In this document: piece by piece, positions 14,679-62,718 of the stretch
How the letters are laid out: each line of letters begins with the position of its first letter
How positions within the stretch are numbered: position 1 is the stretch's first letter
Assembly (NCBI RefSeq): GCF_018499875.1
Contig: NZ_JAHBAY010000004.1
Span: 496,001-560,000 of the forward strand
Length of the DNA stretch: 64,000 nucleotides
Reading direction: 5' to 3'
From: Kineosporia corallincola
Lineage (GTDB): Bacteria; Actinomycetota; Actinomycetes; Actinomycetales; Kineosporiaceae
Translations under genes and position numbers: made by a program
Notes under the pieces: generated by a model
Database searches by the model: none
The model's input: only the letters and a program-made list of their open reading frames with translations
What the model was told of the DNA's origin: nothing

Positions 14679-14684
14679 GTGAGC

Positions 14685-14723
14685 GTGCGTAAGACTCTCG
14701 TACTTGGACGGCGCGCCCGCTGA
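14685..14723 (+). CDS. ilvB leader peptide
   Basis: Twelve codons encode MRKTLVLGRRAR and a stop. A GTG two codons upstream (14679, giving MSVRKTLVLGRRAR) is an alternative start, with GGGGG at 14668-14672. From memory, actinobacterial ilvB leader peptides described in the literature have the form MR...LVLGKR. The branched-chain run uses CTC, GTA and CTT; GTA and CTT are rare in this genome's style, which would favour stalling. The last codons lie inside the 5' arm of the attenuator hairpin. Confidence 0.75.
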   Translation: MRKTLVLGRRAR

Positions 14724-14781
14724 GGTCATGGTGACCCGCGAGCGCGCGACCCCTTGTGCCCATTGGGACGAGGGGTTTTTT
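14711..14781 (+). terminator. ilvB attenuator: pause hairpin and intrinsic terminator
   Basis: Hairpin 1 pairs 14711-14720 with 14738-14747 (nine pairs, one mismatch) around an inner GGTCA-TGG-TGACC stem. Directly next to it is a terminator stem (14750-14761 with 14765-14775, one bulged G) followed by TTTTTT (14776-14781). Read-through to ilvB should rise when ribosomes stall on the Leu-Val-Leu codons just upstream of hairpin 1. A possible antiterminator is GGTC (14724-14727) with GACC (14748-14751). Structure is read by eye. Confidence 0.75.
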
Positions 14782-14869
14782 CGTCCCTGCCGACAGTTGC
14801 GCGCATCTCAGCTGCCGGCATCGACGGTCCGATGCACAGCAGTGATCCGACGAGCGAAGGAACCCCCTG

Positions 14870-16687
14870 ATGCCCGGCCAGTCCCACACCGAACCCTCCG
14901 GCGCAGCCCGCGCCGCCACCACCGGCCCGCAGGTCTCCGGTGAGCCGATGACCGGGGCGCAGAGCCTCGTCCGCTCGCTCGAGTCCGTCGGTGTAGAAAC
15001 GGTTTTCGGGATCCCGGGCGGAGCGATCCTTCCGCTCTACGACCCCCTGATGGACTCCACCAGGATCCGTCACATCCTGGCCCGCCACGAGCAGGGCGCC
15101 GGGCACGCGGCCGAGGGCTACGCCCAGGCCACCGGCCGGGTCGGGGTCTGCATGGCGACGTCCGGCCCGGGCGCGACCAACCTGGTCACCGCCATCGCCG
15201 ACGCCTACATGGACTCGATCCCGATGGTCGCGATCACCGGCCAGGTGAGCAGCAAGATGATCGGCACGGACGCCTTCCAGGAGGCGGACATCGTCGGCAT
15301 CACCCTGCCGATCACCAAGCACAACATGCTGGTCACCGACGCCGCGGAGATCCCGCGCGCGGTGGCCGAGGCGTTCCACATCGCGAGTACCGGCCGTCCG
15401 GGCCCGGTTCTGGTCGACGTGCCCAAGGACGTGCTCCAGGCGAGCACCACGTTCTCCTGGCCGCCGAAGCTCGACCTGCCCGGCTACCGCGCCGTCACCC
15501 GGCCGCACAACAAGCAGATCCGGGAGGCCGCCCGGCTGCTCACCTCCTCGTCGCGTCCCGTGCTCTACGTCGGTGGCGGTGTGCTGAAGGCGCACGCCAG
15601 CGAGGAGCTGCGGCGGCTCACCGAGGCGACCGGCGCCCCCGTCGTCACCACCCTGATGGCGCTGGGCGCGCTGCCCGACTCGCACCAGCAGAACCTGGGC
15701 ATGCCGGGCATGCACGGCACCGTGGCCGCGGTCACCGCGCTCCAGAAGGCCGACCTGATCGTCAGTCTCGGTGCCCGGTTCGACGACCGGGTCACCGGCA
15801 ACCTGGACTCCTTCGCACCGCACGCCAAGGTGGTGCACGCCGACATCGACCCGGCCGAGATCGGCAAGAACCGGCTCGCCGACGTGCCGATCGTGGGTGA
15901 CGCCAAAGAGGTCATCGCCGAGCTGTGCCTGGCCGTCGAGGCGGAGCACAAGGCCGGCCGCAGCGCCGACCTGACCGCCTGGTGGCAGCAGCTGGACGGC
16001 TGGCGCCAGGCCTTCCCGCTCGGCCACGCCCCGGCCCCGGAGGGCGAGGTCTCGCCGCAGGACGTGATCGCCCGGATCGGCGCGATCTCCGGCCCGGACT
16101 CGATCTACGTCGCCGGTGTCGGCCAGCACCAGATGTGGGCGTCGCAGTTCATCAAGTACGAGAACCCGCACACCTGGATCAATTCCGGCGGTGCGGGCAC
16201 GATGGGCTTCGCGGTGCCGGCCGCGATGGGCGCGAAGACCGGCCGTCCCGACACCGTGGTCTGGGCGATCGACGGCGACGGCTGCTTCCAGATGACCAAT
16301 CAGGAACTGGCCACCTGCGTGATCAACCAGATCCCGATCAAGGTCGCCGTCATCAACAACTCCAGCCTGGGCATGGTCCGGCAGTGGCAGAACCTGTTCT
16401 ACGACGGCCGCTACTCCAACACCGACCTGCACACCTCGGTCGGCAGCCGGATCCCCGACTTCGTCAAGCTGGCGGAGGCCTACGGCTGCGTCGGGCTGCG
16501 CTGCGAGACGCCCGAAGACGTGGACGCCACGATCAAGAAGGCGATGGAGATCAACGACGTCCCCGTCGTCATCGACTTCGTCGTGCACCGTGACGCGATG
16601 GTCTGGCCGATGGTCCCGGCCGGCGTCAGCAACGACGCCATCCAGATCGCGCGTGACACCCGCCCGGATTTCGACAGCGAAGACTGA
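14870..16687 (+). CDS. ilvB: Acetolactate synthase large subunit
   Basis: 605 residues. This thiamine-diphosphate enzyme joins two pyruvates, or pyruvate with 2-oxobutyrate, in the first common step of valine/leucine and isoleucine synthesis. Visible are the N-terminal ThDP domain with catalytic Glu ([21 protein letters not shown]), the FAD-binding middle domain and the ThDP/Mg motif [19 protein letters not shown], then [12 protein letters not shown]. Start ATG with GAAGGAA upstream. It leads the ilvB-ilvN-ilvC row and sits behind the leader-peptide attenuator at 14685-14781. Confidence 0.96.
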
Positions 16688-20104: not shown

Positions 20105-21262
20105 ATGAACGCCAGAATTCTCGGCACCACCGAGACGCTCGACACCAGTGATGTCGTCGATCCGTCCGAGACCACCAGCCGTCCGCTGACCTTCAGCGTC
20201 ACGCCGAACCCGGCACCGGCCACCCCGGAGCGCCGGGCCCAGATCCACGCCCAGCCCGGCTTCGGCAAGTTCTTCACCGATCACATGGTGTCGATCGACT
20301 GGACGCAGGGCGAGGGCTGGCACGACGCCGGCCTGATCCCCTACGGCCCGATCCAGCTCGACCCGGCCGCGGCCGTTCTGCACTACGCACAGGAGATCTT
20401 CGAAGGGCTCAAGGCCTACCGGCACGCCGACGGCTCGGTCTGGGCGTTCCGCCCGGAGGCGAACGCGGCCCGGCTGGCGAGGTCCGCCCGGCGGCTGGCG
20501 CTGCCCGAGCTCTCCGAGGAGGACTTCCTGGCGAGCATCGACCTGCTGGTGAAGACCGACCAGGCCTGGGTGCCCGACCACGCCAGCGGTGAGAGCAGCC
20601 TCTACCTGCGGCCGTTCATGTACGCGTCGGAGACCTTCCTCGGCGTCCGGCCCAGCAAGACGGTGCGTTACCTGCTCATCGCCTCGCCGGTCGGCCCGTA
20701 CTTCTCCGGCGGGGTCAAGCCGGTCAGCATCTGGCTGAGCAGCACCTACACCCGCGCCGCCGCCGGTGGCACGGGTGCGGCCAAGTGCGGCGGCAACTAC
20801 GCGGCCGGCCTGGCCGCGCAGCTGGAGGCCGAGGCCCACGGCTGCGAGCAGGTCTGCTTCCTCGACGCGGCGGAACACCGCTGGGTGGAGGAGCTCGGCG
20901 GCATGAACATCTACTTCGTCAAGCGCGACGGCACACTGGTCACGCCCACCGTCTCCGGCACCATCCTGGAGGGCATCACCCGCTCCTCCATCCTCACCCT
21001 GGCCGGCGAGATGGGGCTGAAGGTCGAGGAACGCCAGATCAGCATCGACGAGTGGCGTGACGGCGTGGCCTCCGGCGAGATCAGTGAGGTGTTCGCCTGC
21101 GGCACCGCGGCCGTCATCACCCCGCTGGGCAAACTCGCCTGGGAGGGTGGCGAACTCGAGATCCCGTCCGGCGAGGTCGCGATGAAGATCCGGCAGTCGC
21201 TACTCGACGTGCAGTACGGCCGGGCAGAAGACACCCACGGCTGGATGCGCAAACTGGCCTAG
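20105..21262 (+). CDS. ilvE: Branched-chain amino acid aminotransferase
   Basis: 385 residues, PLP fold type IV. Last step of valine, leucine and isoleucine synthesis, with glutamate as donor. Motifs: the arginine region [30 protein letters not shown] around the catalytic Lys, [25 protein letters not shown] and [10 protein letters not shown] near the C-terminus. Start ATG with GAGGGA at about 20092. Monocistronic: a hairpin precedes it after leuB and a 21-pair hairpin follows. Confidence 0.95.
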
Positions 21263-21270
21263 AACGGCCC

Positions 21271-21319
21271 GAATTGAGGACGACGACGAGCTCGCACGGC
21301 TCGTCGTCGTCCTCAATTC
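21271..21319 (+). terminator. Perfect 21-base-pair hairpin after ilvE
   Basis: Positions 21271-21291 and 21299-21319 are exact reverse complements with a 7-base loop. The stem contains GAGGACGACGA, which recurs in hairpins at 26097, 31352 and (single arm) 37143. It separates ilvE from the cimA leader transcript. T-run weak (TTCTGTTG). Confidence 0.75.
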
Positions 21320-21345
21320 TGTTGTGTGGCAGAATGACCGGCAGC

Positions 21346-21402
21346 ATGTTCATCAACCGCGTCATTATTCACAGGCGCGTCGGCACCGCCCAGGGCCAGT
21401 AA
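21346..21402 (+). CDS. Putative cimA leader peptide
   Basis: An 18-codon frame, MFINRVIIHRRVGTAQGQ, starting with ATG and ending with TAA. It contains the run GTC-ATT-ATT (Val-Ile-Ile); ATT is a rare isoleucine codon in such GC-rich DNA, and CimA begins the threonine-independent isoleucine route. The pattern of three branched-chain residues, one residue, then Arg-Arg matches the ilvB leader (LVL-G-RR against VII-H-RR). A weak -10 (CAGAAT, 21330-21335) would put the mRNA start about four bases before the ATG. Translation is predicted, not shown. Confidence 0.6.
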   Translation: MFINRVIIHRRVGTAQGQ

Positions 21403-21457
21403 GAGCCCGGCACCGTCGACGCGCAGACCTTCCGCACCCATGCGGGGGGTCTTTTTT
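21375..21457 (+). terminator. cimA attenuator: pause hairpin and intrinsic terminator
   Basis: GCGCGTCG (21375-21382) pairs with CGACGCGC (21417-21424), with an inner GGGC/GCCC stem. Directly adjoining is a 12-pair terminator stem (21425-21436 with 21441-21452, two T-G pairs, loop CCCA) followed by TTTTTT (21452-21457). The 5' arm of the first stem lies in the leader codons right after Val-Ile-Ile. cimA starts 41 bases after the T-run. Confidence 0.75.
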
Positions 21458-21497
21458 CATGCGTGGACCAGCACCCACCGACCAAAGGCGAGCAACG

Positions 21498-23108
21498 ATG
21501 GAGAGCACCGGCCTCAGCACAGGCTCGGGCGGCACCTTCCAGGTGTACGACACCACCTTGCGCGACGGCGCCCAGCAGGAGGGACTGAGCCTCTCGGTCC
21601 AGGACAAGCTGCTGATCGCCGGGCACCTGGACGATCTGGGGGTGGGCTTCGTCGAAGGTGGCTGGCCGGGCGCGATTCCGAAGGACACCGAGTTCTTCCG
21701 CCGGGCGGCGGAAGAACTCACCCTGAAGAACGCCGTGCTCACCGCCTTCGGCGCCACGCGCAAGGCCGGTGTCGCGGTGCACGACGACCCGCAGGTGAAG
21801 GCGCTGATCGACTCGCTCGCCCCGGCCGTGACGCTGGTGGCCAAGAGCGACATCCGGCACGTGGAGCGGGCTCTGCGCACCACGCCGCAGGAGAACCTGG
21901 CGATGATCACCGAGACCGTGCGCCACCTGCGCGATCACGGCCGCCGGGTGTTCGTCGACGCCGAGCACTTCTTCGACGGCTACCGCTTCGACCGGGCCTA
22001 CGCCCTGGAGGTGGTGCGGGCCGCCGCCGAGGCCGGCGCCGAGGCGGTCGTGCTGTGCGACACCAACGGCGGCATGCTGCCGAACCAGGTGGCCGACGTG
22101 GTGCGTGACGTGCGCCAGGGATCGGGCGCCGACCTGGGCATCCACTGCCACAACGACACCGGCTGCGCGGTCGCGAACTCGCTGGCCGCCGTCGACGCCG
22201 GCGTGATCCAGGTGCAGGGCACCCTGAACGGCTACGGCGAGCGCACCGGGAACGCCGACCTGATCACGGTCGTCGCCGACCTGGAGCTGAAACTCGGGCG
22301 AAAGGTGCTGCCGGACGGCCGCATCCACGACATCACCCGGATCGCCCGGGCCGTCGACGAGATCGCCAACGTCGCGCCGTACAACCGTCAGCCCTACGTC
22401 GGGGCCAGCGCGTTCGCGCACAAGGCCGGGCTGCACGCCAGCGCGATCAAGGTGGACCCGGACCTCTACCAGCACATCGACCCGGCGGGCGTCGGCAACG
22501 ACATGCGCATGCTGGTGTCCGACATGGCCGGCCGGGCCTCGATCGAGCTCAAGGGCCGGGAGCTGGGTTTCGACCTGTCCAGCGACCGCGACCTGCTCGG
22601 CCGGGTGACCGGGCGGGTGAAGCAGCTGGAGGCCGACGGGTACACCTTCGAGGCCGCCGACGCGTCGTTCTCGCTGCTGCTGCACGAGGAGGTGCACGGC
22701 ACTCGCCCGGTGTACTGCGACGTGGAGAGCTGGCGGGTGATCACCGAGTTCCACGGCGGCGCCGCGGTCTGCGAGGCCACCGTGAAACTGACCGCCGGGG
22801 GCGTGCGTACGGTGGCGACGGCCGAGGGCAACGGCCCGGTCAGCGCTCTCGACCACACCCTGCGCCAGGCGCTGCTGCCGGTCTACCCCGAGCTGGAGCG
22901 GATGAAGCTCACCGACTTCAAGGTGCGCATCCTCGACGGCGCGTCGGCCACCGACGCCGTCACCCGGGTGCTGGTGGAGACCACGGGCAACGGGGCGGTC
23001 TGGCAGACCGTGGGCGTCGGCCCGAACATGGTCGAGGCCAGCTGGCAGGCCCTGCTGGAGAGTTTCGTCTACGGTCTGCACTTCTCGGGTGTGCCGTCAC
23101 GACTCTGA
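21498..23108 (+). CDS. cimA: (R)-citramalate synthase
   Basis: 536 residues. It condenses acetyl-CoA with pyruvate to citramalate, which LeuCD and LeuB carry on to 2-oxobutyrate for isoleucine. The TIM barrel starts with VYDTTLRDGAQQEGLSLS. The CimA-type motif EGGWPGAIPKDTEFF differs from LeuA. HCHNDTGCAVANSLAA carries the metal-binding His pair, and the LeuA-type allosteric domain fills about 400-530. ATG start behind AAAGGCGAG. Homocitrate or 2-isopropylmalate synthase activity is less likely on these motifs. Confidence 0.9.
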   Translation: MESTGLSTGSGGTFQVYDTTLRDGAQQEGLSLSVQDKLLIAGHLDDLGVGFVEGGWPGAIPKDTEFFRRAAEELTLKNAVLTAFGATRKAGVAVHDDPQVKALIDSLAPAVTLVAKSDIRHVERALRTTPQENLAMITETVRHLRDHGRRVFVDAEHFFDGYRFDRAYALEVVRAAAEAGAEAVVLCDTNGGMLPNQVADVVRDVRQGSGADLGIHCHNDTGCAVANSLAAVDAGVIQVQGTLNGYGERTGNADLITVVADLELKLGRKVLPDGRIHDITRIARAVDEIANVAPYNRQPYVGASAFAHKAGLHASAIKVDPDLYQHIDPAGVGNDMRMLVSDMAGRASIELKGRELGFDLSSDRDLLGRVTGRVKQLEADGYTFEAADASFSLLLHEEVHGTRPVYCDVESWRVITEFHGGAAVCEATVKLTAGGVRTVATAEGNGPVSALDHTLRQALLPVYPELERMKLTDFKVRILDGASATDAVTRVLVETTGNGAVWQTVGVGPNMVEASWQALLESFVYGLHFSGVPSRL

Positions 23109-61400: not shown

Positions 61401-62313
61401 GGTGCCGCCGAGCCCGCCCGCCCCCGGCGACCCGGAACCGGCCAGGGCGCCGCAGCCGGTGCCGTTCGAGCGGGCGACGCAGGAGAAGCGACTGCGCAAG
61501 GCCGAGCGGGCGCTGAACCTGCTGGGCACGGTCAACCCGCTGGCACTGGAGGAGTTCGCGGCGCTGGAGGAGCGGCACACGTTCCTGAACAAGCAGCTGG
61601 ACGACCTGAAGGTGTCACGCCGGGATCTGCTCCAGATCATCGAGGACGTGGACCGGCGGGTGGAGGAGGTCTTCACCGAGGCGTTCAACGACACCGCGCG
61701 CGAGTTCGTCGGGGTGTTCCAGCGGCTGTTCCCCGGCGGCGAGGGCAAACTGATCCTCACCGATCCGTCGAACATGCTGACCACCGGGCTGGACGTGGAG
61801 GCGCGACCGCCGGGCAAGAAGGTCAAGCGCCTGTCGCTGCTGTCCGGCGGCGAGCGCTCGCTCACCGCCGTCGCTCTGCTGGTGTCCATCTTCAAGGCCC
61901 GGCCCAGCCCGTTCTACGTGATGGACGAGGTGGAGGCCGCCCTCGACGACACCAACCTGGGCCGGCTGATCCGGATCTTCGAGGAGCTGCGCGAGTCGTC
62001 GCAGCTGATCGTGATCACCCACCAGAAGCGCACGATGGAGGTCGCGGACGCGCTCTACGGCGTCACGATGCGCGGCGACGGGGTGACCACGGTGATCAGC
62101 CAGCGGCTGGCGGACGACGACGGCGAGTCCGGTCCGCGGCGTGGTGCCGGTGCCACTGCCGGTGCCGGGGGTGGTGCCGACGGTGACTCGGCGAAGGCGA
62201 GTGTTTCCGCGGAGGTGGCGCCTTCGGCGGATCGGGTGATCGACCTGGCCGCGGCGGAGGCGGCCGGGGAGACCGGGGAGTCCGGGGTGCCGGATGGGGA
62301 AGAGACGGTCTGA
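58432..62313 (+). CDS. smc: Chromosome segregation protein SMC
   Basis: 1293 residues. ATPase of the SMC-ScpAB condensin. Walker A GPNGSGKSNVVDALSWVMGE at about 31; two coiled-coil arms (170-500 and 680-1010, Ala/Glu/Arg-rich); hinge at about 525-665 (VPGLIGSLAAVLAVEPGFETAV); signature LSLLSGGERSLTAVALLVSIF at about 1135; Walker B FYVMDEVEAALDDTNLGRL. The last 75 residues are a Gly/Ala/Asp tail beyond the ATPase head. GTG start with GAGGAG at 58415. ftsY usually follows smc in actinobacteria. Confidence 0.96.
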   Translation: MHLKTLTLRGFKSFASATTLRLEPGITCVVGPNGSGKSNVVDALSWVMGEQGAKSLRGGKMEDVIFAGTSGRPPLGRAEVALTIDNSDGALPIDYTEVTISRTMFRSGGSEYAINGSPCRLLDIQELLSDSGIGREMHVIVGQGQLDQVLQATPEERRGFIEEAAGVLKHRKRKEKAIRKLDAMQGNLQRLADLTTEIRRQLKPLGRQAEVARRAQVVQADLRDAKARLLADDLVTLTETIAAELADEAAVQERRSLVEGELARARARLSALELAASAASPQLSQAQNTWYQLSSLRERTRGTNSLAADRLRLLSESEPERASGRDPDDLEAQAALVREQEEQLQGEVEGASELMLAAEDRRREAEQAARAEEQRLVELARRAADQREQLARLAGRVAAQRSTVDASVDAVERLAGTIGDAERRASEAAAEVEALVTSGEVSPASAQDEAQAEALRVEAEQVADRIAADEATLEAAQAQLTGLNRELEALRHTEREAHGERKEWAARRDTLALGLRRKDGAGAVLAAGDRVPGLIGSLAAVLAVEPGFETAVAAALGPAAGAVAVRDLTGALAALDLLATEDGGQAVLVPAQGGGALADADPAGWPALPPGARWVRTLVREPGELSPAVDRLLHRVAVVPDLRAAAELIRLWPELSVVTTSGELVSAVRVVGGSASAPSPIETQAAVEQAGERVAAAAEKAETAGAALAGGRDRQQTVQQQVRDLQDAVKRAQGDLRRVEGRITELEGRRAQAEAKLAAERGRLAGTARAAEAEVERLRAQHEKAGQNEAAAREALFELEARLEAAQESFDAADDEEPDTSERDRLTEAAARARSEETDARLALRTAEERARAVAGHADQLMQRAAEERAARARAVAREERRQRQMQIARAVLAGGEYMLVLLDASLAVAEQERLRLEAERDARDAELQAMRETEQRLASEQARLIDSAHRDEVVRTEQRLRIDALRQRSVDELGMDPDVLIDEYGPHQLVPPSPPAPGDPEPARAPQPVPFERATQEKRLRKAERALNLLGTVNPLALEEFAALEERHTFLNKQLDDLKVSRRDLLQIIEDVDRRVEEVFTEAFNDTAREFVGVFQRLFPGGEGKLILTDPSNMLTTGLDVEARPPGKKVKRLSLLSGGERSLTAVALLVSIFKARPSPFYVMDEVEAALDDTNLGRLIRIFEELRESSQLIVITHQKRTMEVADALYGVTMRGDGVTTVISQRLADDDGESGPRRGAGATAGAGGGADGDSAKASVSAEVAPSADRVIDLAAAEAAGETGESGVPDGEETV

Positions 62314-62353
62314 GGTTGCCATGATCCTCGGCTGAGGCGACCATGACATCGTG

Positions 62354-62386
62354 AAGGCTCCCTGATGCGTTCCGGGGGCCTTTTCG
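62354..62386 (+). terminator. Terminator of smc
   Basis: AAGGCTCCC (62354-62362) pairs with GGGGGCCTT (62374-62382, one T-G pair) and TTTT follows, 40 bases after the smc stop. Confidence 0.8.
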
Positions 62387-62718
62387 ATTGCCCCGGTAAA
62401 CCGCCAGGTTTCGCGCTCCGCCCTCAACGCCCGGCGCCCGGTGACAGTTCCCCTTGCGGGCTGGGACTTTTCCGGTAGTCGGCAATGTCGTTCCTGTGAC
62501 TGTTCCGTACGGGTGATCATCGAAGGGATGTCTGGGGCGCGCGTGCCTGACCAGCGCCGTCATTTGAAAGACGCTGTCCGGTGGTGGTTTTCGAGGACGA
62601 TTTGATAGTCATGGATTCGGTCGGGTGTCCAGCCCCTGGCGGCAAGAGTGACATGATCGAAACAATTGGCATGGCCGTTCCCATTGGGTCGAGGCGAAAT
62701 ACCTCGTAACGTAGACAT
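62387..62718 (+). promoter_or_regulatory. Intergenic region with the promoter of the last gene
   Basis: About 330 bases, AT-richer from 62560 on, with no convincing gene. TTGGGT (62684-62689), 17 bases, TAACGT (62707-62712) and a GTG exactly seven bases further make a clear leaderless promoter. The remaining part could hold an untracked small RNA; no strong hairpin seen. Confidence 0.6.

Follow-up and report, generated by a model that had tools for sequence, protein, structure and literature searches.

CimA starts a threonine-independent route to isoleucine, and the DNA directly ahead of cimA in Kineosporia corallincola raises the question of whether expression of this gene follows the supply of isoleucine. 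The locus was analyzed within a window of 64,000 nucleotides, the whole stretch of DNA under study, for which a transcription attenuator with an isoleucine-coding leader peptide had been proposed from the letters of the sequence (the original prediction). Comparison with relatives, with the class and with the phylum suggests that the element is very probably a ribosome-mediated transcription attenuator tying cimA expression to charged Ile-tRNA. Its conservation, covariation, codon choice and geometry are seen directly in the data presented below.

Organization of the cimA leader region

The components named in the original prediction were present in the window (Table 1). These included the 18-codon frame with its run GTC-ATT-ATT, the adjoining 12-pair terminator stem followed by TTTTTT, and a cimA gene starting just after the terminator. 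The first stem, given originally as eight pairs (21375–21382/21417–21424), is contained in a somewhat longer hairpin, P1, whose main stem in the fold of the window element has 10 pairs, including one G-U. Inside P1, the predicted fold displays an ACC/ACC internal loop followed by two short inner stems. The terminator hairpin, T, adjoins P1 without a spacer, and the cimA ATG lies 40 nt downstream of the U-run. The encoded protein scored 611 bits in the citramalate synthase family TIGR00977, whose cut-off is 450. Folding of the 169-nt stretch gave −66.7 kcal/mol (z = −3.24), a value equalled by 1 of 200 shuffles. Within the window leader, 5 nt separate the last Ile codon from P1, and the stop codon begins 25 nt into P1.

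The stop codon of ilvE (21260–21262) lies upstream of the cimA leader, and the 21-bp perfect inverted repeat located 3' of ilvE is a probable ilvE terminator that would separate ilvE from the cimA promoter. Because this repeat stands between the end of ilvE and the candidate promoter, cimA in the window seems to have a transcript of its own; the gap from the candidate −10 element to the leader start codon is 10 nt. The cimA frame is open upstream across the whole leader region (21324–21498), forming a 594-codon ORF, and automatic annotation could therefore set the cimA start too far upstream.

Table 1. Positions in the window of the features discussed in the text.
Feature	Position	Strand	Basis
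Leader peptide ORF MFINRVIIHRRVGTAQGQ*, 18 codons	21346–21402	+	Read from sequence
Control codons Val-Ile-Ile (GTC ATT ATT)	21361–21369	+	Sequence; conserved Ile runs in relatives
Hairpin P1, presumed switch hairpin	21375–21424 (arms 21375–21384/21415–21424)	+	Fold, covariation, R1 match
Predicted intrinsic terminator T	21425–21457 (arms 21425–21436/21441–21452; U-run 21452–21457)	+	Fold, covariation
cimA, citramalate synthase, presumed controlled gene	21498–23108	+	TIGR00977
Candidate extended −10 element TGTG-G-CAGAAT of the cimA transcript	21325–21335	+	Sequence
21-bp perfect inverted repeat 3' of ilvE	21271–21319 (21271–21291 with 21299–21319)		Sequence
ilvB leader VRKTLVLGRRAR*, GTG start, Leu-Val-Leu control codons	14685–14723	+	Sequence
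P1 and terminator of the putative ilvB attenuator (ilvB ATG at 14870)	14711–14781	+	R1 match

Conservation of the element upstream of cimA

The original prediction had set the conservation of leader frame, Ile codons and terminator in relatives as one part of its test, and this conservation was found at two levels of relatedness. Near relatives were represented by the best 80 of 585 confirmed named loci, among which CimA of the best named relative, K. mesophila, is 88% identical to that of the window, and by 30 further loci; together they provided 104 distinct upstream regions. The element was present in 99 of these regions, which, as near relatives, are not independent of each other. A script located 95 of the 99 elements, with the 5' arm of P1 reset by a motif rule in 4, and the remaining 4 were located by hand anchors. 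In four of the five regions without an element (L095 and L108–L110), the upstream frame runs straight into cimA, and its C-terminus appears ilvE-like by eye. The fifth region (L079) is broken off by a contig end.

To extend the comparison, we used a covariance model, R1, constructed from 40 cimA elements. None of these elements came from loci placed in the window's family; for this reason, the match of R1 to the window represents an independent test. R1 matched positions 21348–21462 with 50.1 bits (E = 2.2e-11 in the window), and the same match was the top one in the whole 8.2-Mb genome (E = 2.8e-9). A weak R1 match elsewhere in the window, at 62308–62391 (12.5 bits, E = 0.3), is probably due to chance.

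An even draw of 118 genomes from the class contained 95 with a TIGR00977 match at E ≤ 1e-100, of which 93 exceeded the family cut-off. R1, whose training elements include some from the genomes scanned here (e.g., G013), located the element no more than 600 nt upstream of cimA in 68 of the 95. One more element (G072) turned up when the fetched locus itself was searched, and two genomes have the element ahead of part of cimA on a separate contig (L179, L204), bringing the class total to 71 of the 95 cimA genomes and 24 of 29 families. Among the 24 element-free genomes, families f34 (nine genomes) and f40 (eight) are represented in full; three of the seven f41 genomes and one of the two f46 genomes also belong here, as do f25, f38, and f47, each sampled by one genome. 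Neither R1 nor a second model, R2, trained on several of the genes described below, revealed an element in the cimA loci of these 24 genomes. In f40 and in the element-free f46 genome, cimA lies close behind an upstream reading frame.

At E ≤ 0.001, a scan of the phylum gave R1 matches in 37 of 149 genomes, 31 of the 37 lying outside the class. Twenty out-of-class loci were fetched from the 44 phylum matches: 13 stand before ilvB, three before cimA, and two before leuB-ilvE, while two were unclear. Each of the three out-of-class cimA leaders contains four consecutive Ile codons. In the more distant family f85 (L294, L300), an Ile-codon element precedes a leuB-like gene, which is followed by an aminotransferase-like frame that by eye appears ilvE-like.

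Structure and covariation of the two hairpins

The alignment of 40 elements disclosed changes on both sides in 12 of 21 pairs, with 92.2% of the cells able to pair. The covariation score of 0.351 was reached by none of 500 shuffles, and structures slid along the alignment scored at most 0.077. A further alignment of 31 elements from several genes gave changes on both sides in 13 of 20 pairs. Among the 99 predicted folds of near-relative elements, P1 and T adjoin directly (0 nt) in 61, are 1 nt apart in 37 and are 2 nt apart in one. The predicted folds allow both hairpins to form together, with mean energies of −21.0 kcal/mol for P1, −16.6 kcal/mol for T and −39.3 kcal/mol for the two combined.

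A conserved, structured RNA ahead of a biosynthetic gene could also be a metabolite riboswitch or a T-box. Against this, the only matches of Rfam at the gathering score in the window were two tRNAs, and the loop of P1 varies in length and sequence among relatives, which makes a sensor of this type scarcely credible at this locus. Rfam searches of 21250–21520 returned only weak matches, all under gathering scores.

Isoleucine codons ahead of P1

Runs of Ile codons were counted in any frame within 27 nt before P1. Of the 69 class elements, 64 could be parsed for their stems and five were left out; the window element, misplaced by the parser, was set by hand for the codon count. At least two consecutive Ile codons were found in 57 of the 64 parsed elements, compared with 0.3% of 10,727 control positions from the same regions. 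In the near-relative set, a run of at least two was present in 83 of 99 elements and a run of at least three in 28; the other 16 are without tandem Ile codons, and an Ile codon in one frame or another is present in every element of the set. Together with the presence of the element in 99 of 104 near-relative regions and 71 of 95 class genomes, these runs support the reading of the element as an Ile-codon attenuator, in agreement with the original prediction. Weighing against this reading are the 24 class genomes that have no element and the 16 near-relative elements without a tandem run.

Codon choice in the leaders differs from that in the genes. The 135 leader Ile codons consist of 94 ATT, 41 ATC and no ATA, whereas the 447 Ile codons of cimA itself, counted over the 30 top-scoring genes of the sample, include 6 ATT, 439 ATC and 2 ATA. 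The remark in the original prediction that ATT is unusual in such coding DNA is thus borne out by these genes. Variation of the third base that is confined to C and T fits what would be expected of a coding sequence.

The same architecture before other genes

Forty-nine further R1 hits in the class had not first been placed at cimA, and 40 of them were fetched. The genes behind these hits were identified by tblastn, with NCBIfam supplying the names of the reference proteins; the best NCBIfam hits of the ammonia-lyase-like reference stayed under the cut-off (294 bits vs. 378.75). The 40 fetched hits precede ilvB (20), a threonine ammonia-lyase-like (ilvA-like) gene (9), leuS (6), leuA (2), cimA pieces (2) and an unidentified gene (1). 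Hence R1, although derived from cimA alone, also detects elements of ilvB, leuS, leuA, and ilvA-like genes. R2 fits all 80 loci given to it, a result that is partly circular as some of these 80 loci were used in its training.

In these loci, the control codons stand right before P1, P1 adjoins T, and the stop codon lies at or in the region of the P1 5' arm; the codons themselves mostly change with the gene. In class and phylum loci combined, 41 of 42 ilvB leaders have a run of at least three branched-chain amino acid (BCAA) codons and none has Ile-Ile; Leu-Leu occurs in all 17 leuS leaders and in both leuA leaders. Ile-Ile is present in both leuB-ilvE leaders. The match between codon and gene is weaker for the ilvA-like leaders, most of which end in a run of the Met-x-Ile-Thr type, with Ile-Ile in one of nine. 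Such an exchange of codons on one RNA is what amino-acid-specific control would predict.

The window itself contains a putative ilvB attenuator of this kind (Table 1), matched by R1 at 14684–14788 with 21.2 bits (E = 0.0013 in the window and 0.164 genome-wide). In family f34, an element precedes the ilvA-like gene in all nine genomes (L184, L185, L193, L194, L196, L198, L199, L205, and L213), and searches with R1 and R2 found a cimA element in none of the nine. Two single loci were also observed. One (L287, G220:C11) has an element with a Val-Leu-Leu-Ile-Thr leader ahead of a prephenate dehydratase gene. In the other (L183/L260, G139:C6:196629–196724), a tandem-Ile leader element precedes a short ORF without an NCBIfam or Pfam match; the same genome has cimA and ilvB elements as well.

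These data bear on a simpler explanation, in which the hairpins merely end the transcript of the upstream gene or act as a constitutive insulator, the leader ORF having arisen by chance. T is strong and, in the window, has ilvE as its near upstream neighbour, as this explanation would have it, but ilvE is followed by a separate inverted repeat, the Ile runs occur far more often than by chance, and the codons change with the downstream gene. We consider the explanation, which the conservation of the element also disfavours, highly improbable in its general form, and on the same three grounds a plain ilvE terminator was rejected.

Ribosome position and the proposed mechanism

Leader geometry was obtained from 63 class leaders, the window's own not among them. 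A GTGNCANNNT motif ends 6–8 nt before the assigned leader start in 42 of the 63 and is absent from 21, a shortfall that weighs against the attenuator reading. The location of this motif in the 42 suggests a transcript start that coincides with the leader start codon or lies very close to it; the cimA leader is probably leaderless in this sense.

For the geometry, a ribosome was assumed to protect 13 nt, counted from the start of the A-site codon. When modelled at the first Ile codon of the 63 leaders, it extends over a median of 1 nt (0–5) of the P1 5' arm, and at the stop codon over a median of 11 nt (9–29). The difference in coverage between the two positions is at least 6 nt in every one of the 63. 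The stop codon begins either 2–4 nt before P1 or 7–16 nt into it.

From these positions, we infer a scheme that comprises the transcript start, the stalling of the ribosome, the direction of its effect and the exclusion between P1 and T. Transcription would begin close to the leader start codon, and a ribosome would start on the short leader. When Ile-tRNA is ample, this ribosome would reach the stop codon and keep the P1 5' arm open; transcription would stop at T, and cimA would not be made. When Ile-tRNA is scarce, the ribosome would be held on the tandem Ile codons. Held at the first of them, it would end at the foot of P1 and P1 would fold; folded P1, located 0–1 nt from T, would hinder the closing of the T base, and RNA polymerase would pass T into cimA.

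As the likeliest step of the switch, the role of P1 as an antiterminator opposing T has about an even chance of being correct. Based on the ribosome geometry and the 0–2 nt spacing between P1 and T, we read P1 as a presumed counterpart of the Corynebacterium glutamicum antiterminator H2, the base of which abuts and overlaps the terminator. Since no bases shared by P1 and T were seen in the cimA elements, their exclusion would need to be steric and could take place, for example, in the RNA exit channel. Several results stand against this step or leave the balance even. No pairing in competition with the T 5' arm was found, as described below, and codon changes in the S. coelicolor ilvB leader were reportedly ineffective (cited in PMC1262725). 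Were P1 alone to block termination, read-through would be expected of a leader that is not translated, whereas the C. glutamicum start-codon mutant shows low expression, opposite to that expectation.

The low expression of this mutant (PMC11857589, in the part covered here) would suit a variant of the leader-peptide attenuator in which P1 aids termination, as a pause hairpin or a brace stacked on T, and in which a ribosome stalled at the final Ile codon sits over the GCGCG foot of P1, thereby weakening termination. A ribosome at that codon would cover approximately 5 nt, corresponding to the nearly invariant foot of P1, and the two hairpins are each stable and fold together at the energies given above. 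However, stalling is likeliest at the first hungry codon, from where the ribosome hardly reaches P1, whereas at the stop codon it opens P1 in every case. As a stall at the first codon barely touches P1, the effect would have the wrong sign unless the last codon dominates, and we regard a terminating role of P1 as rather unlikely.

A classical trp-type attenuator, whose 2:3 antiterminator would share bases with T, is improbable, even though leader, control codons and terminator are all present and competing pairs have been proposed for Corynebacterium ilvB leaders (PMC10272879, in the part covered here). Duplex energies on the 5' side of T, set against simple letter shuffles, gave no sign in the cimA elements of an antiterminator that would pair with the 5' arm of T. 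The upstream RNA was less complementary to the T 5' arm than shuffled sequence (−7.0 vs. −7.9 kcal/mol), as was the P1 3' arm to the T 5' arm plus loop (−4.3 vs. −5.4 kcal/mol). No anti-antiterminator or third hairpin was found between the leader and the P1 arm (−7.2 vs. −8.1 kcal/mol for shuffles). When the P1 5' arm was shortened by its first 8 nt and the RNA was cut off within the T loop, less structure was predicted than for shuffled RNA (−6.6 vs. −8.6 kcal/mol), and the ten folds shown for this shortened RNA have no hairpin in common.

Returning to P1 as the opponent of T, we tentatively propose, as a generalization that is plausible but falls somewhat short of probable, that a single re-codable architecture is used throughout Actinomycetota. 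It would place one leaderless leader and two abutting hairpins before cimA, ilvB, ilvA-like genes, leuA, leuS, and leuB-ilvE, and it would switch through the folding of a hairpin at the terminator base, without base-sharing antitermination.

Discussion and comparison with known systems

Leader-peptide attenuators responding to BCAAs are already known in actinobacteria for ilvB and leuS. Our search of the open-access literature found no described cimA leader. The breadth of the element, the change of its codons from gene to gene, and the apparent absence of a base-sharing antiterminator make it worth the attention of specialists. If the attenuator reading is true, many actinobacteria sense isoleucine apart from leucine and valine at cimA by means of an RNA of the ilvB/leuS type, and production of isoleucine or citramalate would gain an added control point. 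The element would also be a test case for attenuation in which no antiterminator shares bases with the terminator; this question was not settled for Streptomyces ilvB (PMC1262725), and work on C. glutamicum took it up only recently (PMC11857589), as far as the parts of these papers covered here go.

The following comparisons likewise draw on parts of the papers cited. In the C. glutamicum ilvBNC system, the leader begins one nt from the transcript start, a Val-to-Ala change abolishes the Val response, a change of the start codon cuts expression by 80%, and a third hairpin has been proposed (PMC11857589). The bases of its antiterminator and terminator hairpins adjoin each other with a 3-nt overlap (PMC11857589). 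The cimA element resembles this system in having a leader that is probably near the transcript start, BCAA codons and a hairpin whose base abuts the terminator. It differs in that its predicted hairpins lie 0–2 nt apart, as opposed to the 3-nt overlap, and in showing no sign of a third hairpin.

The ilvB-II motif of Corynebacterium contains a uORF and the stems P1 and P2, P2 being the terminator with its U-run; in the antiterminator as proposed, the right shoulder of P2 pairs with the P1 loop (PMC10272879). One Val-to-Glu change in the leader left regulation undisrupted (PMC10272879), which, like the S. coelicolor result given below, weighs against control by the leader codons. Compared by description, a uORF and two stems are common to ilvB-II and the cimA element, and ilvB-II is confined to ilvB. 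Predicted ilvB and leuS leaders of other actinobacteria are short ORFs with BCAA codons followed by terminators, and codon changes in the S. coelicolor ilvB leader were reportedly without effect on regulation (cited in PMC1262725). The ilvB ORFs in that paper are described as overlapping the terminator, and cimA is without mention in the part covered here.

The closest likeness is to the leaders of Streptomyces lividans, where ilvL before ilvBHC and leuL2 before leuS are short, carry BCAA codons and belong to a set in which several are leaderless (PMC8079986, Table 4). That table contains eight leaders, none for cimA. In our family f35, the leader before ilvB (L276) is exactly MRTRILVLGKRVG and the leader before leuS (L274) is exactly MRAVRLLLSEPR, identical to the S. 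lividans ilvL and leuL2 peptides, respectively (PMC8079986). Because of this letter-for-letter agreement, f35 is taken to be Streptomyces. Both loci fit R2, and the nine f35 genomes all have a cimA element, with leaders such as VLSFAMIIGSRRAGPQ. The S. lividans leaders differ from the cimA leader in their codons, Ile-Leu-Val-Leu or Leu-Leu-Leu, and in the genes that they precede (PMC8079986, Table 4). The architecture is shared, with codons before P1, P1 abutting T, and the stop codon at or in the P1 5' arm, and on these features of the RNA the cimA element is best filed as a putative member of the actinobacterial ilvL/leuL2 kind.
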